DNA from: Alloprevotella sp.
GTDB lineage: Bacteria > Bacteroidota > Bacteroidia > Bacteroidales > Bacteroidaceae
Length of the DNA: 64,000 bases
Reading direction: 5' to 3'
Assembly: GCA_017471505.1 (NCBI GenBank)
Contig: JAFUTC010000006.1
Coordinates: forward strand, 1-64,000
A program made the position numbers and the translations under genes. This document shows, one piece after another, positions 16,696-61,806 of this stretch; within the stretch, counting starts at the first letter, position 1; each line of letters opens with the position of its first letter. The notes beneath the pieces were generated by a model. The model was not told where the DNA came from, did no database searches, and saw nothing but the letters and a program-made list of their open reading frames with translations.

Positions 16696-16780
16696 CCAGT
16701 CGCATAATCGGACGCGCCAATTGCCTTATGCCGCACGCCGATGGCATAATCGCATTTCGCTACCCCATAATCGAAATTTC
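16696..16780. repeat. 21-bp phased palindrome array, copy 1 (4 cores)
   Basis: Cores CATAAT, CCTTAT, CATAAT and CATAAT start at 16703, 16724, 16745 and 16766, exactly 21 bp apart. The array lies in a 408-bp gap between two minus-strand genes (16500-16907); the rest of the gap holds the pyrimidine tract at 16814-16903. Confidence 0.8.
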
Positions 16781-16813
16781 AACTCTCACACGTGCGCGTC
16801 AGCGCGTTAACGA

Positions 16814-16903
16814 GGGTCTTTTTTCTTTCTTTGTTTATTTCTTTCTTCTGTGGGGGTGCGGGGGTAGCCTCTTCTTTCTTCTTTATTTCTATCTTTTTTC
16901 TGT
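16814..16903 (+). other. Polypyrimidine tract interrupted by G5-N3-G5
   Basis: The plus strand is almost pure C/T for long stretches (CTTTTTTCTTTCTTTG and TCTTCTTTCTTCTTTATTTC) around GGGGGTGCGGGGG at 16855-16867. It follows the stop of a minus-strand lipoprotein gene. It may be a transcription-end or non-B DNA region; no gene is seen in it. Confidence 0.4.
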
Positions 16904-16907
16904 TGGC

Positions 16908-17349
16908 TCAATGCGGTCCCATGCCACCGCCGGGACCAAAGCCGCCACCACCGCCACCCATGCTACCTTGCGTGGTGGTGGAGGTGGAAATGTCGGACTT
17001 CAGCACGGTCTGCGTGCCGCTGAGGGTCGGCGACAGGATGAGTCCATAGAAACTGGTGTCGCCCGTGGCTGCCGTCGAGGTGCCGAGACTGATGCGGCCG
17101 CCGGAGGCAAACTCCGGACTGCTGACCTGGAGGGTGGCGTTGGTATAGGTGCGCGGCAACTGGAAGGCCAGCACGTCGAGCGACATCAGGGTGGAAAGCA
17201 TGGCCGTGGGGTCGGACGGCGCAGAACCGCCATTGCCTGGGTCGGTGCCCGGAGTGACTATTTCGGATGATTCGATAAAATCGTCGGACGTGCACGACAA
17301 TAGCCCCGTCGCACACAGGAAAATCGTCAGTAAAAACGTTCTGTTTCAT
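16908..17349 (-). pseudogene. Small Gly-rich lipoprotein broken by a one-base homopolymer shift
   Basis: From TTG at about 17300 the frame encodes SCTSDDFIESSEIV and a 130-residue product ending in a Gly-rich tail (GGGGGGFGPGGGMGPH). No proper start exists in that frame: an in-frame TGA lies upstream. ATG 17349 in the next frame gives MKQNV; removing one A from the A5 run at 17332-17336 would join it as MKQNVLLTIFLCATGLLSC, an ideal lipoprotein signal. So the gene is probably intact in relatives and here carries a +1 insertion or sequence error. The middle (SLGTSTAATGDTSFYGLILS) is Ser/Thr-rich. Function unknown. Confidence 0.55.
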
Positions 17350-17520
17350 AACCTTATTCTTTATAAATACGACGGCAAGTTATGAATTTGCACCTTACTT
17401 CTCGCAAAAATCGCAAAGAAAAAAAACTAAAAAACCTCGATTTTTAACTTAATTTTCAAATTAAATTATCAATTCGAGGCGTAAATGGTCCCAACTGACT
17501 TATCGGTCAGGTTCGTACGC

Positions 17521-18432
17521 CTATTCGCCCAATCGGCGGCGCAGGCGACGGAAATAGTAATAGTAGGGATGGACAAGGCGCAACTGATAGAGCAGCGCGG
17601 CCCACGGCGAGGCGAAGCGCTTCTTGGCGTAGTGGCACACACCGAACGTCCACAGCCAGCGACTCTCGCGCTTCATCTGGTCGAGGAAGTAGGCGGCGGA
17701 GTTGCGGTTGGTAAGCCGGCGGAGCGGCCCCACCTTGTTGCGGTGCGAATGGTCTTTCGTGACCGACTGTGCGTGCTTGCGATAGGCCACGGTGATGGTG
17801 TCGAGGCAGTCCATCGCGGTGCCGGCGCTCGTGGCTTTTATCCAAAACGGCTTGTCCTCCATGAGCGGGATGGACTCGTCGAAGCCTCCGAGTTGCTCGA
17901 AGGTGCGGCGGCGAACGAAGGAAGCCGGAGCCGGATAGGGATTATAGGCCAGCAGGTAAAGCCAGCGCTCGCGGGCAGACAGGCGAGTGAAGAAGCGGTG
18001 GTAGCGTTCGGGCGACTGCTCGGACAGTCCGTCACCGAAGGCCGTCATGTCGGCAAACAGGATGTCGGCCTTGGGGTGCGCGGCGGCAAATTCGACGTAG
18101 TCGGCCACGCAATTGGGCAACAGTTTGTCGTCGCCCGCAATCACCTTGAGCCACTCGCCCTTGCCGGCGCGGAAGGCACGGTTGGCGTTGGCCGTGATGC
18201 CTGTGTTGGCCGGTACCGTAAGCAGGTCGGCGCTCTCGAAGCGGTCGGCATGGGCGGCAAGCCATCTCTGGCAGATGGCGACGGTCTCGTCGGTCGAGCC
18301 GTCGTCGCTGACCACCAGTTGCAGGTTTGCATAGGTCTGGGCCCATATACTGTCGAGCGTTTCCTCGACGTAGCGGGCCGACTGGTAGGTGATGACGCAG
18401 ACGGAGACAAGCGGACCCGACGCGGTGCTCAT
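17521..18432 (-). CDS. Glycosyltransferase family 2
   Basis: Starting at MSTASGPLVSVCVITYQSA, the product is 303 residues and its ATG overlaps the aminotransferase stop by 4 bp. A family 2 GT-A fold is shown by VSVCVITYQSARYVEETLDS, VVSDDGSTDET and KVIAGDDKLL (acidic metal-binding motif), followed by a C-terminal acceptor region with FVRRRTFEQLGGFDE. It should transfer a nucleotide-activated sugar during surface polysaccharide assembly on the cytoplasmic side of the membrane. Being coupled to the dideoxyaminosugar genes, it may use that sugar, which is inference. Confidence 0.88.
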   Translation of the reverse strand: MSTASGPLVSVCVITYQSARYVEETLDSIWAQTYANLQLVVSDDGSTDETVAICQRWLAAHADRFESADLLTVPANTGITANANRAFRAGKGEWLKVIAGDDKLLPNCVADYVEFAAAHPKADILFADMTAFGDGLSEQSPERYHRFFTRLSARERWLYLLAYNPYPAPASFVRRRTFEQLGGFDESIPLMEDKPFWIKATSAGTAMDCLDTITVAYRKHAQSVTKDHSHRNKVGPLRRLTNRNSAAYFLDQMKRESRWLWTFGVCHYAKKRFASPWAALLYQLRLVHPYYYYFRRLRRRLGE

Positions 18433-19532
18433 GGCTTCCAGTTGTTTATCAGTTCGGCCACGCGGGCGGCATCGTCCAGGGTGAGCACGCTGCTGATGGG
18501 CAGACTGAGTTCCTGGCTGTGGATTTGCTCGGTGACGGGCAGCGACAGATCGTTCCACTCCTTGTAGCACTCCTGCTTATGCGGCGGGATGGGATAGTGG
18601 ATGAGTGTCTGCACGTCGTGCTCGGCGAGGTAGGCTTGCAGTTCGTCGCGACGACTGCAGAGGACGGGGAAGATGTGATAGACATTCTGCGCGTCGGCCA
18701 GCCGCTCGGGCAGCCGCACCAGCGGATGGCGCAGATGGTCGTAATAGTAGTTGGCAACGGCCTGGCGATGGGCATTGTCGGCATCGAGGTGGCGCAACTT
18801 CACGTCGAGGACGGCCGCCTGGATTTCGTCGAGGCGGCTGTTGCGGCCCCGGTACTTGAATACGTATTTCTTGCGGCTGCCGTAGTTGGCCAGGGCACGT
18901 ATGCACTCGGCCAACGCCTCGTCGTCGGTGGTCACTGCGCCGCCGTCGCCCAGAGCACCGAGGTTCTTGCCCGGATAGAAGCTGTGGGCGGAGGCATGTC
19001 CCAGGCTGCCGGTGCGGAGTGCGCCGTAGCGGCATCCGTGGGCCTGTGCGTTGTCTTCGACCAACAACAGGTGGTGTTCCCGGCAAAGTTCGCCCAGTCG
19101 CTCGGTATAGGCACAGCGGCCGTAGAGGTGGACCAGCAGGACCGAGCGCGTACGCGGGGTGATGGCCGCCGCCACCTGTGCGTCGTCGAGTTCTAAGGTG
19201 TCGAGCCGAGGCTCTACGAGTACGGGCGTCAGGCCGTTCTCGGTGAGGGCCAGGATAGAGGCGATATAGGTATTGGCGGGCACGATGACTTCGTCGCCCG
19301 GATGCATGAGTCCGAGTTCGAGATAGGCTCGATAAATCCATATCAGCGCATCGAGGCCGTTGGCTACTCCGACGCAATGGCGCGTGCCTACGAAGCGGGC
19401 ATAGTGTTCTTCAAACTGGCGGTTGGCCTCTCCTTGCAGATACCAACCCGACTGCACCACGTCGGACACGGCCTGCTGGATTTCGGCGCCGTGAAGGGCC
19501 GTGGTGGCCTTAAGGTCGAGAAATTTTATCAT
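18429..19532 (-). CDS. DegT/DnrJ/EryC1 sugar aminotransferase, FdtB/QdtB-like
   Basis: Starting at MIKFLDLKATTAL, the product is 367 residues, typical for the family. It has VGVANGLDALIWIYRA, GDEVIVPANTYIAS, VEDNAQAHGC and the PLP-lysine region HSFYPGKNLGALGDGGAV, then YGSRKKYVFKYRGRNSRLDE. With FdtA-like isomerase and acetyltransferase genes directly upstream, it most likely converts a dTDP-3-keto-6-deoxyhexose to the 3-amino sugar. Whether the product has the galacto (Fuc3N) or gluco (Qui3N) configuration cannot be decided from the sequence. Four-base ATGA overlaps link it to the genes on both sides. Confidence 0.88.
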   Translation of the reverse strand: MIKFLDLKATTALHGAEIQQAVSDVVQSGWYLQGEANRQFEEHYARFVGTRHCVGVANGLDALIWIYRAYLELGLMHPGDEVIVPANTYIASILALTENGLTPVLVEPRLDTLELDDAQVAAAITPRTRSVLLVHLYGRCAYTERLGELCREHHLLLVEDNAQAHGCRYGALRTGSLGHASAHSFYPGKNLGALGDGGAVTTDDEALAECIRALANYGSRKKYVFKYRGRNSRLDEIQAAVLDVKLRHLDADNAHRQAVANYYYDHLRHPLVRLPERLADAQNVYHIFPVLCSRRDELQAYLAEHDVQTLIHYPIPPHKQECYKEWNDLSLPVTEQIHSQELSLPISSVLTLDDAARVAELINNWKP

Positions 19533-20059
19533 AGTTCGTGAACGACTCCGTTCTTGTCTTTGCGTTCCATGTTTAGCACGACGCCCTCGCGCGTTATGTA
19601 GCCTTGCTGGCGGGCCGGATTGCCGTACCACACGGTGAAGGGCGGCACGTCTTTCGTTACGACACTGCCGGCTCCGATTAGTGCGTACTGCCCGATGTGT
19701 ATGCCAGCCACGATGGTGCTGCCTGCTCCGATGGACGCGCCATCATCGACCACGGTGGGAACAGGCACGAAGTCGGGATTTTGCGAGCGCGGGATGCGGT
19801 CGTTCGTAAAGGTGACGTTGGGGCCCACAAGCACGTGATGGCCCAGGGTTATGCCGTCCCACAACTGCACGCCCGACTTGATGGTTGTGTGGTCGCCGAC
19901 CACCACTTTGTTCTCGATGAGCACGCTGGCGCATATATTGCAGCAACTGCCGATGCGTGCCTCGGGCAGGATGACGCAGAACTGCCACACTCGCGTACCC
20001 CCGCCGATGTGGGGGCTCTGGCAGTCGGACAGCGGATGTATGAAGGGCTTATTGTCCAT
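19529..20059 (-). CDS. Hexapeptide-repeat N-acyltransferase, FdtC/QdtC-like
   Basis: Starting at MDNKPFIHPLSDCQSP, the product is 176 residues of left-handed beta-helix repeats: GGGTRVWQFCVILPEARIG, ICASVLIENKVVVGDHTTI, GHHVLVGPNVTFTND, then SIGAGSTIVAGIHIGQYALIG and the typical YGNPARQQGYI end. Such enzymes acetylate the 3-amino group of dTDP-3-amino-3,6-dideoxyhexoses. It overlaps the isomerase gene by 11 bp and the aminotransferase by 4 bp, consistent with a three-step pathway in one transcript. Confidence 0.87.
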   Translation of the reverse strand: MDNKPFIHPLSDCQSPHIGGGTRVWQFCVILPEARIGSCCNICASVLIENKVVVGDHTTIKSGVQLWDGITLGHHVLVGPNVTFTNDRIPRSQNPDFVPVPTVVDDGASIGAGSTIVAGIHIGQYALIGAGSVVTKDVPPFTVWYGNPARQQGYITREGVVLNMERKDKNGVVHEL

Positions 20060-20468
20060 GCTTGTATTGTATGAATTCGTCGTAGTCGCGGATATAGTCT
20101 TCCTTGTCGTAGGTCTCGGAAGCCAGGCACAGGCAGATGGCACCGCTCGAGAAGTCGTCGAGCACACGCCATATGCCAGGCACGATAAGCAACCCTTCGT
20201 AGGGGTGGTTGAGCAGGAACGTGCGGCGCACGCTTCCGTCGTCGAGCGTCACGGTAAAACTGCCGCTGGCGGCTATCAGCAACTGATAGAGTTGCTTGTG
20301 GGCGTGGGCTCCGCGTGCCTGTCCACCCGGAATGTCGTAGGAGTAGTAGACCCGACGGATGTCGAAAGGCACTTCGCGGCCGTTGCTGACCACCGACAGG
20401 TTGCCCTTGCGCGAATGGTGCGTGTCGAGCGCAATCATCGTACAGTCGTAGACCTTACTTTCTTTCAT
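20049..20468 (-). CDS. dTDP-6-deoxyhexose 3,4-ketoisomerase, FdtA/QdtA-like (WxcM-like cupin)
   Basis: The 139-residue single-domain cupin has RKGNLSVVSNGREVPFDIRR, YYSYDIPGGQARGAHAHK and ASGSFTVTLDDG, the WxcM/FdtA pattern. The RGAHAH segment near residue 52 keeps both histidines that act in FdtA-type isomerisation of dTDP-4-keto-6-deoxyglucose to a 3-keto sugar. It is the canonical-looking one of two neighbouring paralogs and overlaps the other by 14 bp. Confidence 0.85.
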   Translation of the reverse strand: MKESKVYDCTMIALDTHHSRKGNLSVVSNGREVPFDIRRVYYSYDIPGGQARGAHAHKQLYQLLIAASGSFTVTLDDGSVRRTFLLNHPYEGLLIVPGIWRVLDDFSSGAICLCLASETYDKEDYIRDYDEFIQYKHGQ

Positions 20469-20877
20469 GTTGTGAAAAGGCTAAGAATTCGTCGTAGTCG
20501 TATAGGTAGTCGGCCTCGTCGTAGGCGGTCGACGATAGGATGAGCGCCAGCGAGTTGGTGGAGAAATTGGCCATTTCGCGCCACAGTCCCGACGGCACGT
20601 ACAGACCAAAGTACGACCGGTTCATCGGAAACACCTGCCGCTCGACGCCGTTGTCGATGATGATGTCAAAACTGCCCGACAGGGCCACTATCAGTTCCTG
20701 GTTGTTGCGATAGGCATGGCCGCCGCGATGTTCTCCGCCCGGCACGTCGTAGACCCAATAGGCCCGACGGATGGTAAACGGAATCTCGCGGGCATTCTCG
20801 ATGACGGTCAGATTGCCACGCTCGTCGAAGAACTTGGGCAAATCGATTATTTTGGCCTGTTTTGGTTCCATACACAT
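20455..20877 (-). CDS. Second FdtA/WxcM-like cupin with altered active-site histidine
   Basis: Starting at MCMEPKQAKIIDLPK (a start two codons later is also possible), the product is 140 residues. It aligns throughout with the downstream paralog (FFDERGNLTVIENAREIPFTI, YWVYDVPGGEHRGGHAY, LSGSFDIIIDNG). In place of RGAHAH it has RGGHAY, so the second catalytic histidine position is tyrosine. It could be an isomerase of different stereochemistry, a partner of the other copy, or degenerate. It is the first gene of the sugar module, directly behind a promoter. Confidence 0.8.
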   Translation of the reverse strand: MCMEPKQAKIIDLPKFFDERGNLTVIENAREIPFTIRRAYWVYDVPGGEHRGGHAYRNNQELIVALSGSFDIIIDNGVERQVFPMNRSYFGLYVPSGLWREMANFSTNSLALILSSTAYDEADYLYDYDEFLAFSQHERK

Positions 20878-20890
20878 ACTGATTATGCGA

Positions 20891-20898
20891 CAAATATA
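20891..20898 (-). promoter_or_regulatory. -7 element of the dideoxyaminosugar operon
   Basis: Minus-strand TATATTTG fits TAnnTTTG and lies 13 bp before the first isomerase start, implying a very short leader. Confidence 0.5.
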
Positions 20899-20952
20899 AT
20901 CATTTATTCCAATGCGCCGCGCCCAAAGGCCGAAAGAACCGACCAAAATGAT

Positions 20953-21324
20953 TTACTTCAGAAAGGCGAAATAGACGGCCAGCACCAGGCAGCCAAAAGC
21001 GGCCAGGTGGTTCCAGTGGAGACTCTCGCCGCGGAAAAAGAGCGTCACGAACAGCGTGAACACGGACAGCGAGATGACTTCCTGCACAATCTTTAACTGC
21101 ATGATGGTATAGACTCCGCCGTTGCCCGCGAACCCAAGGCGGTTGGCCGGCACCTGGCACATGTATTCGGGCAGGGCCAGCAACCACGAGCACAGGATGA
21201 CAAGCACGAGCGGCGTGTGGTCGGTAAACACATTTATCTGCTGCAACTTGAGGTGGCCGTACCACGCAAACGTCATGAAGATGTTCGAGACCACGAGCAG
21301 CAATAGGGGCATCAGATAGTTCAT
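20953..21324 (-). CDS. DUF486 family membrane protein (DMT-like)
   Basis: The 123-residue protein has four hydrophobic segments and the DUF486 signatures FMTFAWYGHLK, LCSWLLALPEYMCQVPANR and FAGNGGVYTIMQLKI. The family resembles half of a drug/metabolite transporter. It lies 75 bp upstream of the sugar operon, in the same direction, but the promoter between them suggests separate expression. Substrate unknown. Confidence 0.85.
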   Translation of the reverse strand: MNYLMPLLLLVVSNIFMTFAWYGHLKLQQINVFTDHTPLVLVILCSWLLALPEYMCQVPANRLGFAGNGGVYTIMQLKIVQEVISLSVFTLFVTLFFRGESLHWNHLAAFGCLVLAVYFAFLK

Positions 21325-21496
21325 AGGGAAACCAGTTTAGTCAACGGACTGAGACAGATGAAAACGGCAGCAAAATTACGAAAACATTTCCACAACCGGC
21401 AAATAGCCTGCTCGAACGGGGTGCGGCATAAAAATTCGCGGTTTCATCGGTATTTTCTGGAGTTTTTGTAACTTTCCGTCGCCAACCGCAACGCCT

Positions 21497-22141
21497 ATGA
21501 TTGCCACGCTCGACTATGTAGCCCAGACCTTCGACCGCTTCAATGCGCTCTGCTTCGAGGGCAGCCTCGTCCGGCCGCCTATGAGGCTGAGCCGTGCACA
21601 CGGATTTCTGGGCAAACTGACCTTCACGCGGCGCCGCAACCTGCTCGGCAGCGTGCGCTATGCCGACTTCGTGCTGGTGGTGAGCGTGGCCTTCGACCTC
21701 GCGGCCGACGTGCTCGACGACACGATTCTGCACGAGATGATTCACTACTACATCTTGTCGCACCAACTGCGCGACACCTCGACGCACGGCCGTCTGTTCC
21801 GCCAGATGATGGACAACATCAACACGCGCCACGGTCGGCACGTCCGCATCTCGCATCGCACGACGGAGTCGGAGCGCATTGCCGGACCGACGCCGCGCCG
21901 CCACCTGATTGCCGTGAGCCACCTGCGCAGCGGCACAACGGGCATCACCGCCGTCAACCCTGCCTACCACGACCGCCTGCGCAGGCTCCTGCCGCGAATG
22001 AGCGAGGTGGAACGCTGCGAATGGTACGCCTCGGCCGACACGTTCTTCGACCGCTTCCCGCGAAGCCGCACGGTGAAAATCTACCGTATCGACCCGGCCG
22101 ACTTGGACACCCACCTGCACAACGCAACGCGCCTGGAATAA
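21497..22141 (+). CDS. SprT-like zinc metalloprotease domain protein
   Basis: The 214-residue protein has the SprT/Spartan motif HEMIHYYI near residue 84, a following HGRLF, and an N-terminal FDRFNALCFEGSL typical of the family. Spartan-type enzymes cut proteins crosslinked to DNA; the role of bacterial SprT-like proteins is less clear. The zinc-ribbon with paired cysteines seen in many SprT proteins is absent here; the C-terminal 80 residues are Arg-rich. It stands alone between minus-strand genes and ends in a strong terminator that includes its last codons. Confidence 0.8.
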   Translation: MIATLDYVAQTFDRFNALCFEGSLVRPPMRLSRAHGFLGKLTFTRRRNLLGSVRYADFVLVVSVAFDLAADVLDDTILHEMIHYYILSHQLRDTSTHGRLFRQMMDNINTRHGRHVRISHRTTESERIAGPTPRRHLIAVSHLRSGTTGITAVNPAYHDRLRRLLPRMSEVERCEWYASADTFFDRFPRSRTVKIYRIDPADLDTHLHNATRLE

Positions 22142-22166
22142 GCATGCCTATTCCAAGCGCGTTTTT
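22127..22166 (+). terminator. Rho-independent terminator of the SprT-like gene
   Basis: ACGCGCCTGGAATA (22127-22140) pairs with 22149-22162 with one mismatch, followed by T5. The stem includes the last codons of the gene. Confidence 0.8.
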
Positions 22167-22189
22167 CCGGTATCGACGGCAAGGGCGCG

Positions 22190-22486: not shown

Positions 22487-22510
22487 TGGCTTATATGCTG
22501 ATTGATGAGT

Positions 22511-23869: not shown

Positions 23870-23889
23870 TCTCCTAATGGTTGTGTTCG

Positions 23890-23897
23890 CAAATATA
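23890..23897 (-). promoter_or_regulatory. -7 element of the flippase gene
   Basis: Minus-strand TATATTTG fits TAnnTTTG, 20 bp before the start codon. No -33 at proper spacing was seen. Confidence 0.4.
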
Positions 23898-24536: not shown

Positions 24537-24543
24537 TGTTCGC

Positions 24544-31403: not shown

Positions 31404-31490
31404 CACCTTGCATAATGCGGCCGCAAAACGCCATTATGCCGCACGGAAATTGCATTATGCAATCGCCCAATTGCATAATGCGGCAGACGC
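31404..31490. repeat. 21-bp phased palindrome array, copy 2 (4 cores)
   Basis: Cores CATAAT, CATTAT, CATTAT and CATAAT start at 31411, 31432, 31453 and 31474. The first two can pair as GCATAATG with CATTATGC. It lies in the divergent gap between fucP and rpoN, between the two promoters. Confidence 0.85.
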
Positions 31491-31556: not shown

Positions 31557-33044
31557 ATGGCACAGGAATTCAAACAGGACATAAGGCAAGAGCAGAAACT
31601 CGAGCAGGTGCAGCAACTTTCCATCACGCAGGTGGCGCTGGCCCATATCGTCGAGTTGCCGCTGATGGACTTCGAGGATCGCGTGCGTACGGAACTGGAG
31701 GCCAACGAGGCACTCGAGGAACGCATCAGCGACGAGTTTCCCGACGACCCTATGGACGGCATCGGCGCCGACGGCGAGGCGACCGACACCTACGAGTCTG
31801 CATCGCCCGAACAGGATGCCGTGGCCGACTATGCCTCGCCCGACGACATCCCCGACTATCTGCTCCGCCGGCAAGGCGAGCGCGAGGCCCGCGAGGTGCA
31901 GATATCGGCACGCGGAAATGCCCTCGACAGCCTCTACAACCAGATGGGCGAATTGTCGCTCACCGACACCGAGCAACAAGTGCTGGCCTACCTGATTGGC
32001 AGCCTCGATGCCGACGGCTACCTGCGCAAGGACCTCTACGTGCTGCAGGATGAGATGGAACTCTACCACGGCATCGTGGCCTCGCACGACGAAATTGCCC
32101 GCATGCTCGAGGTGCTCCAGTCGTTCGACCCCCGCGGCATCGGCGCACACGACCTGCAAGAGTGCCTGCACCTGCAACTGGCCGACCCCGAACTCCATTC
32201 GCCGTGGAAGCAGAAGGCACTCGAACTGGTCGACCACTGTTTCCGCGACTACACGCTCCGCCACCGCGACGTGGTGCAGCGCCGGCTGCGGCTCTCCGAC
32301 GACGACTTCGAACAGGTGGAGCACCTGCTGCGCAGGCTCAATCCCCGCCCCGGCGGAAGCCTCAACGCCAACGCCTCCGACGACGCGCCCACCATCGTGC
32401 CCGACTTCTACGTCAGCATCGACGACGACGGAAACATCGGCGTCAGCCTGAACCAGGGCGAGGTGCCGCTACTCAACGTGAGCCGCTCCTACCGTAACCT
32501 GCTCAGCGAATACGGCGGCAAGGGGAAAAAACTGTCGCCCAGCCAGCAGGACGCCTACCTCTACGCCCGCAAGAAGGTCAACGACGCCCAGTTCTTCATC
32601 GAACTCGTGCGCCGCCGCCACCAGACGCTGCTCAGCGTAATGCACGCCATCGCCCACATACAGCAGGCGTTCTTCCTCAACGACGACGACGAGAATATGC
32701 TCGTGCCGATGGTGCTCAAAGACGTGGCCGAGCGCGCCGGCGTAGCCGTATCGACCGTCAGCCGCGTCACGTCGAACAAATACTGCGAGACGCCCTACGG
32801 CATCTACCCGCTCAAGCATTTCTTCTCGAAACTCTTCACCGCCGACAACGGCGAAGAACTCTCGGCCCGCCGTGCCAAGGCCGCCCTGCGCACGCTCATC
32901 GAGGCCGAGAACAAGCGCCGGCCGCTCTCCGACGAGGCGCTGGCCGCACAACTGGCTCAGCAGGGACTGCCCATCAGCCGCCGAACCGTGGCCAAGTATC
33001 GCGAACAAATGGGACTGCCGAAGAGCACGCTCCGAAAACAATAG
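31557..33044 (+). CDS. rpoN: RNA polymerase sigma-54 factor
   Basis: The 495-residue protein shows sigma-54 architecture: a Gln/Leu-rich activator-interacting region I (QEQKLEQVQQLSITQVALAHIVELP), an acidic region II (about 55-110), the core-binding domain (LTDTEQQVLAYLIGSLDADGYL, SFDPRGIGAHDLQECL), the DNA-binding HTH (AERAGVAVSTVSRVTSNKYCETPYG, in two parts), and the C-terminal RpoN box SRRTVAKYRE. It directs activator-dependent transcription from -24/-12 promoters. No sigma-54 activator gene lies in the window. Confidence 0.96.
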   Translation: MAQEFKQDIRQEQKLEQVQQLSITQVALAHIVELPLMDFEDRVRTELEANEALEERISDEFPDDPMDGIGADGEATDTYESASPEQDAVADYASPDDIPDYLLRRQGEREAREVQISARGNALDSLYNQMGELSLTDTEQQVLAYLIGSLDADGYLRKDLYVLQDEMELYHGIVASHDEIARMLEVLQSFDPRGIGAHDLQECLHLQLADPELHSPWKQKALELVDHCFRDYTLRHRDVVQRRLRLSDDDFEQVEHLLRRLNPRPGGSLNANASDDAPTIVPDFYVSIDDDGNIGVSLNQGEVPLLNVSRSYRNLLSEYGGKGKKLSPSQQDAYLYARKKVNDAQFFIELVRRRHQTLLSVMHAIAHIQQAFFLNDDDENMLVPMVLKDVAERAGVAVSTVSRVTSNKYCETPYGIYPLKHFFSKLFTADNGEELSARRAKAALRTLIEAENKRRPLSDEALAAQLAQQGLPISRRTVAKYREQMGLPKSTLRKQ

Positions 33045-39055: not shown

Positions 39056-39160
39056 CACATTGCATTATGGCGCGGCAAAATGCCATAATGCCGCCGCGAA
39101 ATTGGACTATGCCATTCACGAAAGGCATAGTCCAATTTTTCTGTCCCATTATGCCGCACG
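39056..39160. repeat. 21-bp phased palindrome array, copy 3 (5 cores)
   Basis: Cores CATTAT, CATAAT, GACTAT, CATAGT and CATTAT start at 39063, 39084, 39105, 39126 and 39147. Cores 1 and 2 pair over 10 bp (GCATTATGGC with GCCATAATGC); cores 3 and 4 form the terminator listed separately. Confidence 0.85.
39099..39138 (+). terminator. Terminator built from array units 3 and 4
   Basis: AAATTGGACTATGCC (39099-39113) pairs perfectly with 39124-39138 over a 10-base loop, and the 3' arm runs into T5. It lies 60 bp after the lipoprotein stop. Confidence 0.75.
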
Positions 39161-39277: not shown

Positions 39278-39871
39278 ATGGAAACTCGCGACAAAATCAT
39301 CGCCACGGCGCAGCGGCTCTTCTTCCGCCATGGCATCAAGGCCGTTCGCATGGACGACATAGCCCAGTCGATTCACATCTCCAAGCGCACGCTCTACCAG
39401 CTCTTCCCCGACAAGAAGACCTTGCTGCTCACCTGCATAGCCACGGCCGACGAAGAGCACCGCAAGGCGGCGCAGGCCATCCTCAGCAGCACCGACAACA
39501 TTCTGGAGATAGCGCTGCGAATCTTCCGCATCCAGGCCGAGGAGATGAAGGCCGCCTCGCACATATTCATACTCGAAGCCTCGCAGAACCCTGACGTCAT
39601 CAACTTCATAGAGTCGCTCCACCGGCACAACTCCGACGAGATGCGCCACTTCATACAGCGCGGCGTCGAACAGGGCTACTTCCGCTCCGACGTCAACTAC
39701 GAAATCATCCAGCGAATGTTCTACGCGGGCCTCAACACCACGAAGGCCACCGAACTGCTATCGCTCTACAAACCCATCGAAATCTTCCAGAGCACCCACC
39801 TGGTGATGCTTCGCGGATGCCTTACCGAAAAAGGCATGAAACTGCTCCAGCAGTTCGAGAGCCAAGCCTGA
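39278..39871 (+). CDS. TetR family transcriptional regulator
   Basis: The 197-residue regulator has an N-terminal HTH (KIIATAQRLFFRHGIKAVRM, DDIAQSIHISKRTLYQLF) at residues 6-52 and an all-helical ligand-binding C-terminal part. It is similar in style to TetR regulators that control envelope or efflux genes in Bacteroidetes, but the target cannot be inferred. dgt starts 36 bp downstream in the same direction, so it might be co-transcribed with it. Confidence 0.88.
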   Translation: METRDKIIATAQRLFFRHGIKAVRMDDIAQSIHISKRTLYQLFPDKKTLLLTCIATADEEHRKAAQAILSSTDNILEIALRIFRIQAEEMKAASHIFILEASQNPDVINFIESLHRHNSDEMRHFIQRGVEQGYFRSDVNYEIIQRMFYAGLNTTKATELLSLYKPIEIFQSTHLVMLRGCLTEKGMKLLQQFESQA

Positions 39872-46320: not shown

Positions 46321-46424
46321 AAAACTCCATAATGCGATTGAAAAAAGGCATTATGGCGTACGAAAATTCCATAATGCAATCGAGCCGTTGCATTATGGAA
46401 TTATTTTAGGCTATAATCCGATTT
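46321..46424. repeat. 21-bp phased palindrome array, copy 4 (5 cores)
   Basis: Cores CATAAT, CATTAT, CATAAT, CATTAT and TATAAT start at 46328, 46349, 46370, 46391 and 46412. Orientation alternates and the first two pair as CCATAATGC with GCATTATGG (perfect 9-bp stem, 12-base loop). It fills the convergent recX/pepP gap. Confidence 0.88.
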
Positions 46425-52501: not shown

Positions 52502-52605
52502 CAAATTGCATAATGCCGCGGCGAAATTGCATTATGCGACGGACGAATTGCATAATCGGATTTTGAAATTCGACTATGCAATTTTTTCATTCCATAATCC
52601 GACGG
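52502..52605. repeat. 21-bp phased palindrome array, copy 5 (5 cores)
   Basis: Cores CATAAT, CATTAT, CATAAT, GACTAT and CATAAT start at 52509, 52530, 52551, 52572 and 52593. Cores 1 and 2 pair as GCATAATGC with GCATTATGC (9 bp). It lies in the convergent gap between the DUF4294 and OmpA-like genes. Confidence 0.88.
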
Positions 52606-52655: not shown

Positions 52656-52678
52656 TCGTAGTTTGCTACGCCGGAAGC

Positions 52679-53767: not shown

Positions 53768-53826
53768 ACCGACAGAGGACAGATTTGGCTGCTTGCAACC
53801 TCTCAAAAACAATGCTAAAACGACGT
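53768..53826 (+). promoter_or_regulatory. SAM-II-like riboswitch in the metK leader
   Basis: A short stem GAGG (53775-53778) with CCTC (53799-53802) encloses AGATTTGGCTGCTTGCAA; an A-rich linker and AATGCTAAAACG (53811-53822) follow. The order (AUUU, UUGCA, closing stem, A-rich linker, GCUAAA) matches the SAM-II aptamer pseudoknot known from alphaproteobacteria and Bacteroidetes. It stands directly before metK, which makes SAM, and is followed by a terminator. The match is by eye. Confidence 0.55.
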
Positions 53827-53870
53827 CTGTGCGCTCCGAAACTGCGCGTAGGCGGACCCCATAAGGAACG

Positions 53871-53952: not shown

Positions 53953-55242
53953 ATGTATCTATTCACCTCAGAATCCGTTTCGGAAGGCCATCCCGACAAA
54001 GTGGCCGACCAGATTTCCGACGCCATCCTCGACCAGCTTCTCGCCTACGACCCCAAGAGCAAAGTGGCATGCGAGACCCTCGTGACCACCGGACAGGTGG
54101 TGGTGGCCGGAGAAATACGCAGCAACGCCTGGTGCGACTTGCAAGACACCATCCGACAGACCATCGACCACATCGGATATAACCGCAGCGAACTGGAATT
54201 CGATGCCAAGAGTTGCGGCATATTCTCGTCCATCCACGACCAAAGCGGCGACATCAACCGCGGCGTGGAGCGCGAAAATCCCGAAGACCAGGGCGCCGGC
54301 GACCAAGGCATGATGTTCGGCTACGCCACCAACGAGACCGACAACTATATGCCGCTGCCGCTCAGCCTGGCTCAGGACATCATGATTACCCTTGCACGCA
54401 TCCGCCGCGAGGGCAAACTGATGACCTACCTGCGCCCCGACGCCAAAAGCCAAGTCACCGTGGCCTACGACGACCACCACCGCGCCGTCGGCATAGACAC
54501 CATCGTCGTCTCCACGCAGCACGACGAGTTTATCACAGCCGAACAGGCCGGCAGCCAAGAGGCCGCCGAGAAACAAATGCTCGAACAGATTGAGAACGAC
54601 GTCATCCACATCCTCATCCCGCGTACCGTGGAAGAACGCGTCAAGACAAGCGCCATACGCGACCTGTTCGAGAAGAGCCAAATCAAGTTCTTCGTCAACC
54701 CCACAGGCAAGTTCGTCATCGGAGGTCCGGCCGGCGACACCGGACTAACGGGCCGCAAAATCATTGCCGACACCTACGGAGGCCGAGGTGCCCACGGAGG
54801 CGGCGCCTTCTCGGGCAAAGACCCGTCGAAGGTAGACCGCTCGGCCGCCTACGCAGCCCGATACATCGCCAAGAATATGGTGGCCGCCGGCGTCAGCGAC
54901 GAAATGCTCGTGCAACTCAGCTATGCCATCGGAAAAGCCAAGCCCGTCAGCATCTACGTCAACACCTACGGCACCGCACACGTGGCCTGCAGCGACAGCG
55001 AAATAGCCAACCGAATCGCCGAACTGTTCGACCTGCGCCCCTACGCCATCGAGCAGAAACTGAAACTACGCTTCCCCATCTATAAAGAGACCGCAACCTA
55101 CGGCCACATGGGCCACCAGCCGCGCACGAAAGTGAAACACTTCCGCTGCAACGGCCTGCCCGACAAGACCCTTGAGGTAGAACTCTTCACTTGGGAGAAA
55201 CTCGACATGGTTGACAAGATACGCGAAACTTTCTCTATATGA
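53953..55242 (+). CDS. metK: S-adenosylmethionine synthetase
   Basis: The 429-residue enzyme has SVSEGHPDKVADQISDAILD at the N-terminus, GAGDQGMMFGYATNET, GGPAGDTGLTGRKIIADTYGG and GGGAFSGKDPSKVDRSAAYAARYIAKNMV, which carry the metal and phosphate ligands. It makes SAM from methionine and ATP, the donor used by the two methyltransferases in the left island. The next gene starts in its ATGA stop overlap. Confidence 0.96.
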   Translation: MYLFTSESVSEGHPDKVADQISDAILDQLLAYDPKSKVACETLVTTGQVVVAGEIRSNAWCDLQDTIRQTIDHIGYNRSELEFDAKSCGIFSSIHDQSGDINRGVERENPEDQGAGDQGMMFGYATNETDNYMPLPLSLAQDIMITLARIRREGKLMTYLRPDAKSQVTVAYDDHHRAVGIDTIVVSTQHDEFITAEQAGSQEAAEKQMLEQIENDVIHILIPRTVEERVKTSAIRDLFEKSQIKFFVNPTGKFVIGGPAGDTGLTGRKIIADTYGGRGAHGGGAFSGKDPSKVDRSAAYAARYIAKNMVAAGVSDEMLVQLSYAIGKAKPVSIYVNTYGTAHVACSDSEIANRIAELFDLRPYAIEQKLKLRFPIYKETATYGHMGHQPRTKVKHFRCNGLPDKTLEVELFTWEKLDMVDKIRETFSI

Positions 55243-55814: not shown

Positions 55815-55840
55815 CCGCCCCAACCCATTGGTCCCAACCC

Positions 55841-56869: not shown

Positions 56870-56875
56870 CATAGA

Positions 56876-57616
56876 ATGATTAAGAAAATCCTCATATCGC
56901 AGCCTCAACCGACCTCGGAAAAGTCGCCGTATTTTGAGATTGCCAAGAAGCACAACGTAGAACTAACCTTCCACTCATTCGTCAAAGTAGAGGGCGTCAC
57001 GACAAAAGAATTCCGTGCGCAGAAAGTTCACATCCCCGACTTCACGGCCATAGTGTTCAACTCGCGCCACGCTATCGACCAGTTCTTCAGCCTATGCAAA
57101 GAACTGCGCATCACCATGCCCGACGACACCAAGTACTTCGGACTGTCGGAGAAGATTATGCTCTACATCCAGAAGTATGTGCAATACCGCAAGCGCAAGG
57201 TCTTCTTCAGCGAAAAGGGCAACTGGGACGAACTGCTCACTATCATGCAGAAGCACAGTTCCGAGAAATACCTCATTCCCCAAAGCGAAAGCACCACTCA
57301 CAATATCACCGAGAAGCTCGACGCTATGGGACTGACCTACAAGACCTGCGTCATCTACCGCACCATAAGCAACAAGATGCTCGAAAGTATCAAGGACTTC
57401 GACCTGACCATACTTTTCACGCCGGTGGGCGTAGATACGCTGCTGAAGTTCTATCCCGACTTCCAGCAGGACCATGTGCTGCTCGGCTGCTTCGGACACA
57501 ACACCGCCGACCATATTAAGACCCTCGGACTGCCCTTGGCTTTCGAGGCGCCCACCGCAGAAACGCCGTCGCTCACCAGTGCGCTCGACAAATTTCTGAC
57601 GGAAAACAACAAATAA
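56876..57616 (+). CDS. hemD: Uroporphyrinogen-III synthase
   Basis: The 246-residue protein matches the Bacteroidetes HemD type: IKKILISQPQPTSEKSPYF, IVFNSRHAIDQFF, GLSEKIMLYIQKYVQYRKRKVF, LIPQSESTTHNITEKL, and LLGCFGHNTADHIKTLGLPL. It closes hydroxymethylbilane to uroporphyrinogen III. It starts 6 bp after the DUF4271 stop. A terminator follows and separates it from rnpA. Confidence 0.87.
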   Translation: MIKKILISQPQPTSEKSPYFEIAKKHNVELTFHSFVKVEGVTTKEFRAQKVHIPDFTAIVFNSRHAIDQFFSLCKELRITMPDDTKYFGLSEKIMLYIQKYVQYRKRKVFFSEKGNWDELLTIMQKHSSEKYLIPQSESTTHNITEKLDAMGLTYKTCVIYRTISNKMLESIKDFDLTILFTPVGVDTLLKFYPDFQQDHVLLGCFGHNTADHIKTLGLPLAFEAPTAETPSLTSALDKFLTENNK

Positions 57617-57644
57617 GCCCCTCGCGCAGGGACGCAAACCTATA

Positions 57645-57683
57645 AAAACCATCGGAAACACATTGGCGTTTTCCGATGGTTTT
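57645..57683 (+). terminator. Terminator after hemD
   Basis: AAAACCATCGGAAA (57645-57658) pairs with TTTCCGATGGTTTT (57670-57683) over an 11-base loop; both ends are A/T tracts. Confidence 0.85.
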
Positions 57684-57724
57684 ATAATTTCGCCCCGACA
57701 ACCCTTACTTCCGACCCAACCGCT

Positions 57725-58138
57725 ATGCCTACACGCACCTTCCCCAAGTCCGAGCATCTGTGCCTCCGTGCAGAGATTGACAAACTCTTCACCTCCGGAA
57801 GTGTTTCTGCTTCGGTTTTTCCCATTAGAGGTGTCTTCCGGCTCACGCCCCTGTCCGACGAACCGCGGGTAAAGGTGCTCATCAGCGTTTCGAAGCGCCA
57901 TTTCCACCACGCCACCGACCGAAACACCATCAAGCGTAGGATGCGCGAAGCCTACCGCCTGCACAAGGCCGACTTCATAGGCAACCTGCCCGACGGCATA
58001 GGCCTGCACGTCGGGTTCCTATGGCTGTCGGACACGATGACCGACTTTCCGAAAATTGAGGAAAGCCTCCGCACGCTCCTCAATATCATCGCCGACAAGG
58101 CCACCCTTGCCCAGCGCACCAACCCTATCGAACTATGA
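57725..58138 (+). CDS. rnpA: Ribonuclease P protein component
   Basis: The 137-residue basic protein has the RnpA signature [16 protein letters not shown] near residue 63 and the preceding [15 protein letters not shown]. The N-terminal [17 protein letters not shown] matches the family. It binds the RNase P RNA and helps mature tRNA 5' ends. Its last bases overlap yidD by 4 bp. Confidence 0.93.
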
Positions 58139-58353
58139 CACTACTGGCTCGCCTGCTCATCTGCCCCATTCGCTTCTATCAGCGCTACATATCGCCGCTG
58201 ACGCCGCCATCGTGCCGCTTCACGCCAACCTGCTCGCAATATGCCGTAGAAGCATTGCAGAAACACGGAGCCTTAAAGGGCATGTATTTGGCCATACGCC
58301 GCCTGCTCAGATGTCACCCGTGGGGAGGCAGCGGATACGACCCCGTGCCCTAA
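58135..58353 (+). CDS. yidD: Membrane protein insertion efficiency factor YidD
   Basis: The 72-residue protein has the full YidD pattern: [35 protein letters not shown] (in parts), then [24 protein letters not shown]. It sits at the membrane and aids YidC-dependent insertion. The rnpA-yidD order with overlap is classical. Confidence 0.95.
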
Positions 58354-58379
58354 TCCTCCCACCTTTTTTCTGCTCGCTT

Positions 58380-58985
58380 ATGGACGCCGCCCAGAAGCCT
58401 TTTGCATTCGTGCCTACTGACTTGCACACGCACCGCACGACCGACCTGCAGCCGAACGACATTGTCTGCCTGTCGCGCGAACAGATGCGGTCGGCCGTCG
58501 CCATGCCGCCTGCGGACGCGCACCACTATTCGGTGGCCGTGCATCCCTGGTGGACCAACTCCGACGAGGCGGCCGCGCTCTGGGAGCACGTGGAGCGCCT
58601 GGCAAGGCAACCGGCCTGCGTGGCCATCGGAGAATGCGGCCTCGACCGACTCCGCGGTGCCGCGATAGAAACCCAGCAGCAATGGTTCGAACGCCACGTG
58701 GCACTGAGCGAGCGCATAGGCAAACCGCTCGTCATCCACTGCGTGCGGGCCTACGACCTGCTGCTGCGGCTGCACAAGACGCTCCGCCCCAGCCAGACAT
58801 GGATTGTGCACGGATTTCGCGGTAAGGCATCGCTGGCCGCCCAACTGCTCGCAGCCGGCTTCTCACTCAGCTACGGCAAGAACCACCAGCCCGAGGCCTA
58901 TGCCATCACGCCGCCGGAGCGCCGCTTTGTGGAGTCGGACGACGAGCCCGTGCGGCCGCAGGACGACTGGTTCGAACCGATATGA
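58380..58985 (+). CDS. TatD family metal-dependent hydrolase, short form
   Basis: The 201-residue protein starts at MDAAQKPFAFVPTDLHTHR, which gives the metal-binding HTH. IGECGLDRLRG and FERHVALSERIGKPLVIHCVRAYD follow with the Glu and His ligands, then WIVHGFRGKASLAAQLL. It is shorter than E. coli TatD (260) but typical for Bacteroidetes. TatD proteins are 3'-5' DNA exonucleases. A frame extending 108 codons upstream runs through yidD and is not real. Confidence 0.87.
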   Translation: MDAAQKPFAFVPTDLHTHRTTDLQPNDIVCLSREQMRSAVAMPPADAHHYSVAVHPWWTNSDEAAALWEHVERLARQPACVAIGECGLDRLRGAAIETQQQWFERHVALSERIGKPLVIHCVRAYDLLLRLHKTLRPSQTWIVHGFRGKASLAAQLLAAGFSLSYGKNHQPEAYAITPPERRFVESDDEPVRPQDDWFEPI

Positions 58986-59019
58986 AAAAGGCCCCGACCG
59001 ATTGGTCAGAGCCTTTTTT
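58985..59019. terminator. Bidirectional terminator between tatD and rnc
   Basis: AAAAAGGC (58985-58992) pairs with GCCTTTTT (59011-59018), with an inner GACC/GGTC stem (58996-58999, 59004-59007). It serves both convergent genes. Confidence 0.75.
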
Positions 59020-59037
59020 CGTAGCATGGCACGGCAC

Positions 59038-59883
59038 CTATTCCTTTCCGCCCTTGTCGGTGCCGGCCGGCGCACTGGCTTCGGCGGCGACGGCCTGGGC
59101 GGGCGGATTGAGGCGTGCCTCCTTGCGCTCGTTCACCTTATTGCGGAAGGCTTCGTCACGGCGCCAGCGACCCATAGCTGCCTTGGCTGCCCGCTGCTGA
59201 CTCTCGCGCTTGGAGAAACCTTCGCCCTGTCCGGCCTTTAGTCCCTCTATCAGCACGAACGAACGGAACAATATCTCGGAACCGGCTTGTTTCTCTTCGC
59301 TTTTCAGGCGGAAGGCCACCGATATGCGGTTCTTCTGCGACCATTCCAGCAGGCGCGACTTGAAATTGTCGTCGCTACGGCTCAACTGCTCAAGGTTGAG
59401 GTAGGAATGGAGTATGCGCTGCTCGAAAAAGCGTGCGCAGTATTTGTATCCGCGGTCGAGATAGATGGCTCCGACAAGCGCCTCGAAGGCATTGCCAGGG
59501 ATGTTGCAGCGCTGGCCGTGGCTGTGGCTGTCCTGCCTTATGAGCCCCTCAAGCCCCACTTGTTGGGCGAGTTGGTTGAGCGTGGTGCGCTGCACGATGC
59601 GAGAGCGCAGGTTGGTCAGAAATCCCTCGCTCTTGTTCGGAAAATGCTCGTAGAGAATGGCCGAAACCACCGATTCGAGCACGGCATCGCCCAGGTATTC
59701 GAGACGCTCGTTGTCGGTGGGCTTGCCACTATTGCGGCGGTGGACACTGCTGCGATGCACGAGCGCCGTACGGTAGAAATCGATGCGATGCGGGTAGAAG
59801 CCTATGATTTTCCTAAGGCTAAAATAAAGCTCCTTATCCTTTCGGAAAAGGAGCCTTATGCGGTCTATCAGGTTGCTTGACAT
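59038..59883 (-). CDS. rnc: Ribonuclease III
   Basis: The 281-residue enzyme has the RNase III signature NERLEYLGDAVLESVVSAIL near residues 58-77 and the second catalytic part FEALVGAIYLDRGY, then a dsRNA-binding domain (residues about 178-245: FKSRLLEWSQKNRISVAFR, EGFSKRESQQRAAKAAMG). A Bacteroidetes-type 30-residue tail rich in A, E and K follows. It cuts double-stranded RNA in rRNA maturation. It is 12 bp after fabF in the acpP-fabF-rnc order. Confidence 0.95.
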   Translation of the reverse strand: MSSNLIDRIRLLFRKDKELYFSLRKIIGFYPHRIDFYRTALVHRSSVHRRNSGKPTDNERLEYLGDAVLESVVSAILYEHFPNKSEGFLTNLRSRIVQRTTLNQLAQQVGLEGLIRQDSHSHGQRCNIPGNAFEALVGAIYLDRGYKYCARFFEQRILHSYLNLEQLSRSDDNFKSRLLEWSQKNRISVAFRLKSEEKQAGSEILFRSFVLIEGLKAGQGEGFSKRESQQRAAKAAMGRWRRDEAFRNKVNERKEARLNPPAQAVAAEASAPAGTDKGGKE

Positions 59884-59895
59884 TGTGTGCGGAAC

Positions 59896-61158
59896 CTATG
59901 CTTCAAATTTCTTCAGTATAACGCAGGCGTTGTGTCCGCCAAAGCCGAACGTGTTGCTGAGTGCGGTCTTGATGGAACGGACTTGTGCCTTGTTGAACGT
60001 GAAGTTCAAGTCGTAGTCAATCTCCGGGTCGCGGTCGTCCTCGGCATGGTTGATGGTCGGGGGGATAATGCCGTCGACGATGGCCATAACACAGGCGAGA
60101 GCCTCCACGCCTCCGGCAGCGCCGAGAAGGTGGCCCGTCATCGATTTGGTAGAACTGATGTTGAGTTTGTAGGCATGTTCGCCGAATACCTGCTTGATGG
60201 CCTTCACTTCGCTTATGTCGCCGACCGGGGTACTGGTGCCGTGGACGTTGATGTAGTCGATTTCCTCGGGCTGCATACCGGCATCTTTCAGTGCGCGCTC
60301 CATGACGAGCCGTGCGCCAAGACCTTCGGGATGCGAGGCCGTGATGTGGTGTGCATCGGCACTCATTCCGACGCCTACCACTTCGCAGTAGATGTGTGCG
60401 CCGCGGGCCTGAGCGTGTTCGAGCGTCTCGAGCACGAGCATGCCGGCACCTTCGCCCATGACGAACCCGTCTCTCGATGCAGAGAACGGACGGCTGGCCG
60501 TCTCGCATTCATCGTTGCGCGTAGAGAGGGCATGCATGGCGTTGAAGCCGCCCACTCCGCACTCAATGATGCCTGCCTCGGCACCGCCGGTTACTATGGC
60601 GTTGGCTTTTCCCAGGCGCAGCAGGTTGAAGGCATCGGCAATGGCGTTCGTGCTGCTGGCGCAGGCGCTGGTCGTCGTATAGTTCGGACCGTGAAAACCG
60701 TAGTTGATGGCCACTTGTCCCGCTGCAATGTCGGAAATCATTTTCGGAATGAAGAAGGGCGAGAACTTGGGGCCGTCCTCCTTGTGAGTTGCATAGTAGT
60801 CGACTTCGGCTTCGAACGTGTGCATACCGCCGATGCCTATGCCCAATATGACTCCTACTTCGTTCTTGTCGATGCCCTCGCCGTCAAGCCCGCTGTCCTT
60901 GATGGCTTCTACGGCGGCCACGATGGCATATTGCTCGTAGAGGTCCATCTTGCGGAGCTGCTTGCGGTCGATAATGTCCGACGGGTCGAAATTCTTGACC
61001 TCGCAGGCAAAATGCGTCTTAAACTTCTCAGGGTCAAAGTGGGTTATCGGTGCAGAACCGCTCTTGCCGTTCTTCATGCTCTCCCACGTTTCAGCAGCCG
61101 TATTACCTATGGGCGTCAGGGCGCCCAATCCGGTCACAACAACTCGTTTTAGTTCCAT
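59896..61158 (-). CDS. fabF: 3-oxoacyl-[acyl-carrier-protein] synthase II
   Basis: Starting at MELKRVVVTGLGALTPIGN, the product is 420 residues. The catalytic Cys is in TTTSACASSTNAIADA, the two His in NVHGTSTPVGD and KSMTGHLLGAAGG, and GFGGHNACVILKKF ends the protein. It elongates acyl-ACP with malonyl-ACP. An ATG 24 bp upstream is also in frame but less conserved. Confidence 0.96.
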   Translation of the reverse strand: MELKRVVVTGLGALTPIGNTAAETWESMKNGKSGSAPITHFDPEKFKTHFACEVKNFDPSDIIDRKQLRKMDLYEQYAIVAAVEAIKDSGLDGEGIDKNEVGVILGIGIGGMHTFEAEVDYYATHKEDGPKFSPFFIPKMISDIAAGQVAINYGFHGPNYTTTSACASSTNAIADAFNLLRLGKANAIVTGGAEAGIIECGVGGFNAMHALSTRNDECETASRPFSASRDGFVMGEGAGMLVLETLEHAQARGAHIYCEVVGVGMSADAHHITASHPEGLGARLVMERALKDAGMQPEEIDYINVHGTSTPVGDISEVKAIKQVFGEHAYKLNISSTKSMTGHLLGAAGGVEALACVMAIVDGIIPPTINHAEDDRDPEIDYDLNFTFNKAQVRSIKTALSNTFGFGGHNACVILKKFEA

Positions 61159-61287
61159 TGATACGATTTTTCTAATGGTCATATATGCACATAACGTTTA
61201 ACGTTTGAACAACTCTCTCACGGCCTTATGCAGACTGTGATGGGCTGCGTCGCGCTAAACGTTATGTGGTTTGGTAAAGCTGATATT

Positions 61288-61524
61288 TTACTTTTTTGCT
61301 TCTTCTATATAAGCGATAGCGTCGCCAACCGTGCTGATTTTCTCGGCCTGGTCGTCGGGAATTGAAATGCCGAATTCTTTTTCGAACTCCATAATCAATT
61401 CTACGGTGTCAAGAGAGTCTGCACCCAGGTCGTTAGCGAAACTTGCTTCGGGTTTAACCTCGGCTTCGTCTACATTAAGCTTCTCAACGATAAGAGCTTT
61501 TACTTTTTCGGAAATTTCTGACAT
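61288..61524 (-). CDS. acpP: Acyl carrier protein
   Basis: The 78-residue acidic protein has the phosphopantetheine site [15 protein letters not shown] with Ser37-region DSL and the typical start [16 protein letters not shown]. It carries acyl chains in fatty-acid synthesis. It precedes fabF by 129 bp with no gene between them, and has a clear promoter. Confidence 0.97.
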
Positions 61525-61579
61525 AATGGTATCGTTATAAGTTTAACTTGTTGATTGATATCTAATCGATTTCGACTTG

Positions 61580-61611
61580 CAAACTTATACAATCCTATGC
61601 GACTACACAAA
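61580..61611 (-). promoter_or_regulatory. Promoter of acpP
   Basis: Minus-strand TTTG (61608-61611), 20 bp, then TAAGTTTG (61580-61587), 56 bp before the acpP start. Ideal spacing. Confidence 0.65.
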
Positions 61612-61702
61612 TATTTTACCGAAAAAACACGAAAATGCCCCCCTGCGCCTATGCGCCACGCACGTACTGCCGTGCCGTCGCCAGACGCCGTACAGACACG
61701 CT

Positions 61703-61806
61703 CCAATTGCTTTATGCGGCCGGAAAATTGCATTATGCGGCAGCGAAATCCAATTATGCAATTTGCGCGTCCCATAATGCAGTTTTCGGATTGCACTATG
61801 CAATTT
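61703..61806. repeat. 21-bp phased palindrome array, copy 6 (5 cores)
   Basis: Cores CTTTAT, CATTAT, AATTAT, CATAAT and CACTAT start at 61710, 61731, 61752, 61773 and 61794. The last unit, TTGCACTATGCAA followed by T5, is itself a small terminator-like hairpin. The array lies in the 404-bp divergent gap between acpP and the ATPase gene, outside both promoters. Confidence 0.85.

Follow-up and report, generated by a model that had tools for sequence, protein, structure and literature searches.

What are the short palindromic cores that stand between genes, always 21 bp apart, in a 64,000-nt stretch of an Alloprevotella sp. genome, and what kind of protein would read them? The stretch (hereafter the window) comprises positions 1-64000 of contig C3 in an assembly of 1.44 Mb and 15 contigs, 77% complete, which we label G000. 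Sequence comparisons suggest that the arrays are rows of palindromic operators for HU-wHTH, a long HU-HIG protein (Pfam family PF18291) with an HU domain and a probable C-terminal winged helix; this protein would probably act as a homodimer that binds cooperatively, regulates its own gene and organises the chromosome.

Counted at no more than two mismatches to CATWATG, the window holds 28 cores in six arrays (of 4, 4, 5, 5, 5 and 5 cores), and our recount gives exactly 21 bp for every step, as in the original prediction made on this DNA. All six arrays lie between genes called with a crude in-house open reading frame (ORF) caller, two each in tandem, divergent and convergent gaps, again as predicted. 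The proposed unit, a 9-bp palindrome GCAT-W-ATGC, holds for the consensus, which is a doubly symmetric 21-mer of about GCATWATGC plus AATTTnnAAATT, but perfect GCATWATGC 9-mers number only six in the window. A five-unit span is seen in 24 of the 38 arrays from the window and contig C1 that pass our detector, whose cut-offs, chosen during exploration, ranged from 0.555 to 0.62 over 63 bp. In aligned five-core arrays the consensus of the first spacer mirrors that of the last, so that the whole array has a dyad.

Further arrays are present genome-wide. The pattern CATWAT-N15-CATWAT matches 403 times in G000 (both strands, some pairs therefore being doubly counted) against 3 matches for the reversed pattern, and three-core matches number 204 against 0; one mononucleotide shuffle of 352 kb gave no array. 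On contig C1 (352 kb), the distances between CATWAT motifs, taken up to 150 bp, peak at 21 bp and its multiples, with 90, 65, 47 and 22 pairs at 21, 42, 63 and 84 bp and at most two pairs at any other distance. This contig carries 33 arrays, 32 of them intergenic (18 tandem, 8 convergent and 6 divergent gaps) and one within a called ORF. None of the three outcomes named in the original prediction as refuting it (no other arrays in the genome, no peak at 21 bp, equal frequency inside genes) was seen. Strong single intergenic CATWATG cores are also found on C1, at 64812, 166210, 172095, 202714, 239126 and 307590; they lie near the starts of housekeeping genes (pheT, proS, trpS and an HU-CCDC81-SPOR gene), and the core at 172095 forms the end of a TTTCAAG row.

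Candidates for the binder emerge from the genes that follow arrays in other members of the genus. With 20 further HU-HIG loci drawn from array-bearing species, 32 loci were scored at one threshold. Of the 16 long HU-HIG genes (a set in which one, L322, is actually a short protein with a wrongly set start), 10 have an array within 300 bp upstream, compared with 1 of 16 short ones (P 0.002) and 25 of 686 other genes (P 1.6e-10), this control being taken from genus stretches that exclude G000, G002 (an assembly 58% complete), G004 and G081; the labels from G004 to G081 denote other genomes in the comparison. The upstream arrays often end about 70-120 bp ahead of the start codon, and their period follows the protein: 21 bp in 5/5 members of the 'LREMP' subfamily of HU-wHTH, 22 bp in 5/5 of the 'MAINY' proteins together with L324. 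The core upstream of HU-wHTH is also dispersed in its own genome in G002 (TTTCACAsTGTGAAA) and in G036 (TTACAAAsTTTGTAA), and a second HU-wHTH paralog of G036 has a different upstream core, TTCCAAAGTTTwGAA. Recognition helices and cores both vary among paralogs; the close relatives G008 and G020 have in common the helix TQATAYRTLRKL and the half-site TTATCA. The HU-HIG domain scores above the curated cut-off in all ten long proteins scanned (E 4.6e-16 to 1.3e-28), and the C-terminal winged helix is indicated by weak Pfam HTH-type matches in part of these ten (none in L373 and L374), by weak matches to PDB profiles (Z-alpha, 0.012) and by a conserved pattern in the alignment.

The same arrangement is seen beyond the genus, in a test on new data that was run last. 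A tblastn search with one HU-wHTH returned 12 records from a plasmid collection (Bacteroides, Phocaeicola, Parabacteroides and Prevotella), at least one of which looks chromosomal (next to rpsL), and three phage records. The 13 loci at ≥80% coverage were tested, namely 10 of the 12 plasmid records (Bacteroides, Phocaeicola and Parabacteroides; H11 and H12 were left out) and all three phage records; five belong to a single B. finegoldii strain and three to a single P. massiliensis strain. The best upstream lag (18-26, over 400 bp) is 22 in 13/13 of these loci compared with 88 of 771 control genes. A lag-22 score of at least 0.57, the score being the highest among nine lags, each taken over 44 bp, and the threshold having been chosen during exploration, is reached by 11 of the 13 and by 28 of the 771; the other two, L389 and L393, score 25/44 = 0.568. 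These 22-bp repeats begin 78-190 bp before the HU-wHTH start codon, and their sequences differ among loci and are not all clearly palindromic. The phage records, L391, L392 and L393 (MT836431, MT837929 and MT836473), are of human-faecal origin, and each encodes HU-wHTH with a 22-bp upstream repeat.

The HU fold is a dimer that bends DNA; if each subunit carries a winged helix, the dimer would be expected to read a palindrome, and two such dimers could touch when two helical turns apart. We infer from these comparisons the binding by HU-wHTH, the dimer and filament geometry, the autoregulation and the chromosomal role, and the CATWATG arrays of the window would have an HU-wHTH binder too. The two winged helices would each read one half-site of a single core, while the HU part would dimerise and bend the DNA. 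Neighbouring dimers would lie on one face of the helix, two turns apart (21 bp in one subfamily, 22 bp in the other), and assemble cooperatively, the usual row in G000 corresponding to five dimers. The array ahead of the HU-wHTH start suggests that the protein controls its own gene. The same core would be bound in many intergenic arrays, a few to tens of kilobases apart, and these dispersed arrays most likely organise the chromosome, as bends or as anchors of loops or domains, rather than control each neighbour; their even spacing, their lack of gene preference and their presence in convergent gaps fit this role best. Core and winged helix would change together, giving each lineage its own dialect of the site. 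The original prediction envisaged a dimeric nucleoid or regulatory protein that binds cooperatively; this gains support from the one-face palindromes, from the absence of any sign of selection for hairpins and from the HU-wHTH genes with upstream arrays.

Spacing bears directly on the choice between chromosome organisation and control of neighbouring genes. Arrays on C1 are on average 10.7 kb apart, with a coefficient of variation (CV) of 0.43 and a minimum of 4.3 kb, whereas intergenic gaps chosen at random give a CV of about 0.88 and a median minimum of about 1 kb; none of 20,000 uniform draws was as even, and with length-weighted gap draws P is 5e-5. The 14 arrays of C3 from 31 kb onward are also evenly placed (CV 0.50, P 0.02), as are those of G002, where 11 CATWATG arrays give P 0.04, six TTTCACA rows P 0.08 and the 17 combined P 0.004 (CV 0.49). 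Arrays occupy 8 of 27 convergent and 6 of 27 divergent junctions on C1. Comparison of the same gaps in a relative, one of the checks proposed for these arrays, gave a divided answer: of 79 gene gaps common to G000 and G002, ten have an array in G000, two of these have one in G002 as well (one of them with another core) and none has one in G002 alone. Since eight of the ten are missing from G002, location is only partly kept. In 19 of 97 species the gene rpoN adjoins an array, about as often as array density predicts for loci centred on rpoN. Near genes for XRE, Lrp, TetR and RpoN, 5, 7, 6 and 7 of 30 loci respectively show a 21/22-bp repeat, coding and simple repeats included; we see no sign of a gene preference.

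An ordinary regulon, in which HU-wHTH or another dimeric regulator would use the arrays as operators for the neighbouring genes only, with no structural role, is compatible with the arrays upstream of HU-wHTH genes and with the strong single cores near C1 promoters. It is made doubtful by the arrays in convergent gaps, by a spacing more even than that of random intergenic gaps, by the absence from G002 of most G000 arrays in shared gaps and by the lack of gene preference.

Three-core CATWAT matches among 58 genus genomes are found in G000 (204), G002 (23) and G036 and G021 (one or two), and in none elsewhere. A core-blind scan, which looks for intergenic self-similarity, finds 21/22-bp arrays built on other cores at 15 of 22 loci from other genus members (lag 21 in 18 and lag 22 in 9 of 34 matches) and at 27 of 60 loci from other Bacteroidales, a set that may contain one genus locus, L112 (lag 22 in 39 and lag 21 in 5 of 81 matches). 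None of 17 loci from other Bacteroidota has one at lag 21 or 22 (seven matches in all), nor does 50 kb of E. coli, nor 100 kb each of G004 and G081. Intergenic repeats with a 14-bp period are raised, making up 14 of the 81 matches in other Bacteroidales and 6 of the 7 in non-Bacteroidales Bacteroidota. A scan of viral contigs for a CATWATG row gave a single contig, with a two-copy 21-bp repeat, and a plasmid search with window array 2 gave no match.

Dyad symmetry exceeds column-shuffled controls (z > 1.65) in 57% of 82 arrays, so that a large minority are not clearly palindromic. The same core recurs at independent loci within a species, for example in G074 and G080, and several core families can coexist in one genome: in G080, TCRYGAG-N15-TCRYGAG matches 236 times and its reversed form never, and the 400 kb sampled contain eight or more distinct repeat families. 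Among the matches listed, the spacers between TCRYGAG cores on C5 of G080 look regional, being GTACG-rich at 242-397 kb and AAACCTTTTTT-like at 472-1020 kb. Minor rows accompany the main type in G000, where three on C1 each have three TTTCAAGsCTTGAAA cores, and contig C15 of G002 has seven rows of two or three TTTCACAsTGTGAAA cores. Some rows in both genomes combine a TTTCA-type core with CATWATG-like cores, all in a common 21-bp register. Exactly 21 bp beyond the TTTCA-type row, a core that resembles CATWATG at least in part is present in 3/3 cases in G000; in G002 this is variable, with some flanking positions empty.

Other candidate binders were rejected. The single-copy XRE gene beside a C1 array (matched in 54 of 58 genus genomes), the main Lrp/AsnC ortholog and the TetR gene beside window array 3 all have strongly conserved recognition helices while the cores differ, as judged from 12 of 30 proteins extracted, from eight loci plus G002 and from 12 of 30 loci aligned, respectively. 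The XRE protein encoded at C1 311266-311799 of G000, with matches in 54 of 58 genus genomes, shows a variable middle and a conserved tail (IKEIRVFFDDGTYESF in G000). The gene between two array matches on C7 and C14 proved to be a thymidine kinase on overlapping contigs; C7:1-4000 and C14:81500-86500 carry the same genes (thymidine kinase, ArgR-like and sulfatase), an assembly overlap.

Several observations weigh against HU-wHTH as the general binder. Five of the 15 true long HU-HIG genes have no above-threshold array; by eye, weaker rows are seen at the below-threshold loci L320, L321, L364 and L371. The HU-HIG genes of G000 itself were not located in the roughly 490 kb inspected, and the six PF18291 matches counted in that genome may include plain HU, which the family also matches (its E. 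coli controls score too). Short HU-HIG genes in G080 also have arrays, but downstream. The array-less G081 and G004 have 8 and 3 PF18291 matches, the four listed for G081 being short, and G007 has an array, yet all six of its ten matches that were listed are short. In G080, no protein has been assigned to most of the array families.

The G000 binder not located and the unassigned G080 families are what would be expected if the dispersed arrays were bound by an unrelated dimeric protein, the HU-wHTH arrays being a parallel case with the same geometry. We consider this unlikely, given that upstream and dispersed cores coincide in G002 and G036 and that the XRE, Lrp and TetR candidates keep their recognition helices while cores differ.

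Spread of the arrays within a mobile or selfish element, with an HU-HIG gene as its driver, appears slightly less likely again. In G080, which has 30 PF18291 matches, a short HU-HIG gene occurs in several near-identical copies; the three examined (C6 214142, 648141 and 927032) all have a 22-bp CCTATAAGAC-type array 150-300 bp downstream, and gene plus array resembles a dispersed module. Such spread would also suit the phage records with HU-wHTH and upstream repeat, and the greater length of array-bearing gaps on C1 compared with other gaps of like orientation (medians with and without an array: tandem 249 and 31 bp, convergent 207 and 80 bp, divergent 383 and 198 bp). Against it stand the even spacing and the array boundaries: in 24 aligned five-core arrays the flanks past the outer cores hold almost no information, with no terminal inverted repeats, leader or tail, and spacers differ as much within an array as between arrays. 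With nothing conserved outside the outer cores, a miniature inverted-repeat transposable element (MITE) is not supported. Repetitive extragenic palindromes (REP) and bacterial interspersed mosaic elements (BIME) with their RAYT (Y1 transposase) resemble the arrays in being many, intergenic, palindromic and lineage-specific; this reading is rejected, as no RAYT was found in five of the 15 genomes scanned (G000 and G002, in their 77% and 58% complete assemblies, and G061, G065 and G019), RAYT matches are present in the array-less G004 and G081, and there is no stem covariation. The REP-like RNA or MITE alternative of the original prediction is thus not supported.

Its suggestion that neighbouring units can pair as hairpins is correct on paper, but such pairing is not selected. 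Mirror complementarity of array halves is 0.642 within and 0.664 between arrays (24 arrays, permutation P 0.99), and that of adjacent cores 0.630 and 0.638. At ±4, the two positions of a core are anti-correlated over 191 cores (0.387 versus 0.478), a weak half-site accompanying a strong one, which fits a dimer that requires a total affinity and not a stem; the ±7 pair shows a small excess (0.738 versus 0.690, P 0.017), which counts against this. A function at the RNA level, the rows serving as hairpin terminators or processing sites, could draw on palindromic cores that are in some cases followed by T runs and on several convergent gaps almost filled by one array, but is very improbable in view of the complementarity values, the ±4 anti-correlation and the lack of an Rfam match at the arrays.

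The window arrays are listed below. The TetR gene next to array 3 has an ortholog in G002 that likewise flanks an array, and the gap of array 4 holds in G002 a TTTCACAsTGTGAAA row in place of CATWATG.

Arrays of CATWATG cores in the window, with their gaps and neighbouring genes
Array	Position	Strand	Cores	Gap and neighbours
1	16703..16772	.	4, at 16703, 16724, 16745 and 16766, each one mismatch from CATWATG	tandem
2	31411..31480	.	4, all perfect CATWATG	divergent; upstream of rpoN (31557-33044 +)
3	39063..39153	.	5	tandem; upstream of TetR gene (39278-39871 +)
4	46328..46418	.	5, at 46328, 46349, 46370, 46391 and 46412	convergent; recX / M24 peptidase
5	52509..52599	.	5	convergent; DUF4294 gene / OmpA-family gene
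6	61710..61800	.	5	divergent

Positions 1-30000 of the window differ from the remainder of C3 in holding few cores and in a GC skew that is about zero or positive, and they include a C5 cytosine methylase gene at 5488-6543; this part is possibly acquired DNA not yet furnished with arrays. A SAM-II riboswitch lies at 53769-53828 (+) (score 59.2 against a gathering threshold of 44), upstream of the ORF at 53953-55242.

The HU/IHF superfamily was reportedly the subject of a 2017 study by Burroughs and colleagues. The candidate binders, ten of ten scanned, match HU-HIG (PF18291), a family of HU domains fused to a wHTH, Ig or Gly-rich motif, so the combination of HU and wHTH is already in the family title. 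They share the dimeric, DNA-bending fold of HU and IHF. HU binds DNA largely without specificity, and the sites of IHF do not form palindromic rows; here the winged helix would bring recognition of sequence, in rows set in helical phase. MatP/matS, Noc/NBS and SlmA/SBS offer another likeness, in palindromic chromosomal sites dispersed through the genome with a proposed structural role, but those sites are single, in contrast to rows of about five at fixed phase, and we know of no species-specific dialects or mixed rows among them. BrickBuilt, a minisatellite MITE of Porphyromonas gingivalis, consists of 1 to 22.8 copies of a 23-nt unit with leader, tail and terminal inverted repeats, and 22-nt repeats in strain W83 are mentioned there without exact locations (PMC4596501). 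The likeness is in intergenic tandem repeats in Bacteroidales and the difference is that no flank is conserved beyond the cores here.

In our literature searches neither the present arrays nor any DNA target, upstream array or dispersed array of HU-HIG was reported, and we met no description of a system in which an HU protein that reads sequence is combined with rows in helical phase, even dispersion and dialects specific to lineages; the HU and wHTH architecture itself is already named in Pfam.

A wider proposal, which we put forward tentatively, is that Bacteroidales may fold their chromosomes with a sequence-specific HU family, each member having its own dialect written in helically phased rows (here about 10 kb apart). 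Dialects would be replaced genome-wide while the geometry and spacing of rows are kept; several would coexist in a genome, and even in a row, and phages would carry both genes and rows.

If the HU-wHTH reading is true, a widespread branch of HU has acquired a reading head, phased sites of its own and control over itself, which would amount to a sequence-specific nucleoid system for the Bacteroidales, major bacteria of the gut. HU-HIG, a family of unknown role, would thereby gain candidate targets and a function, and chromosome organisation in Bacteroidales becomes directly testable. The pairs of protein and site in these genomes would also form a natural series for studying the genome-wide turnover of DNA-binding specificity.

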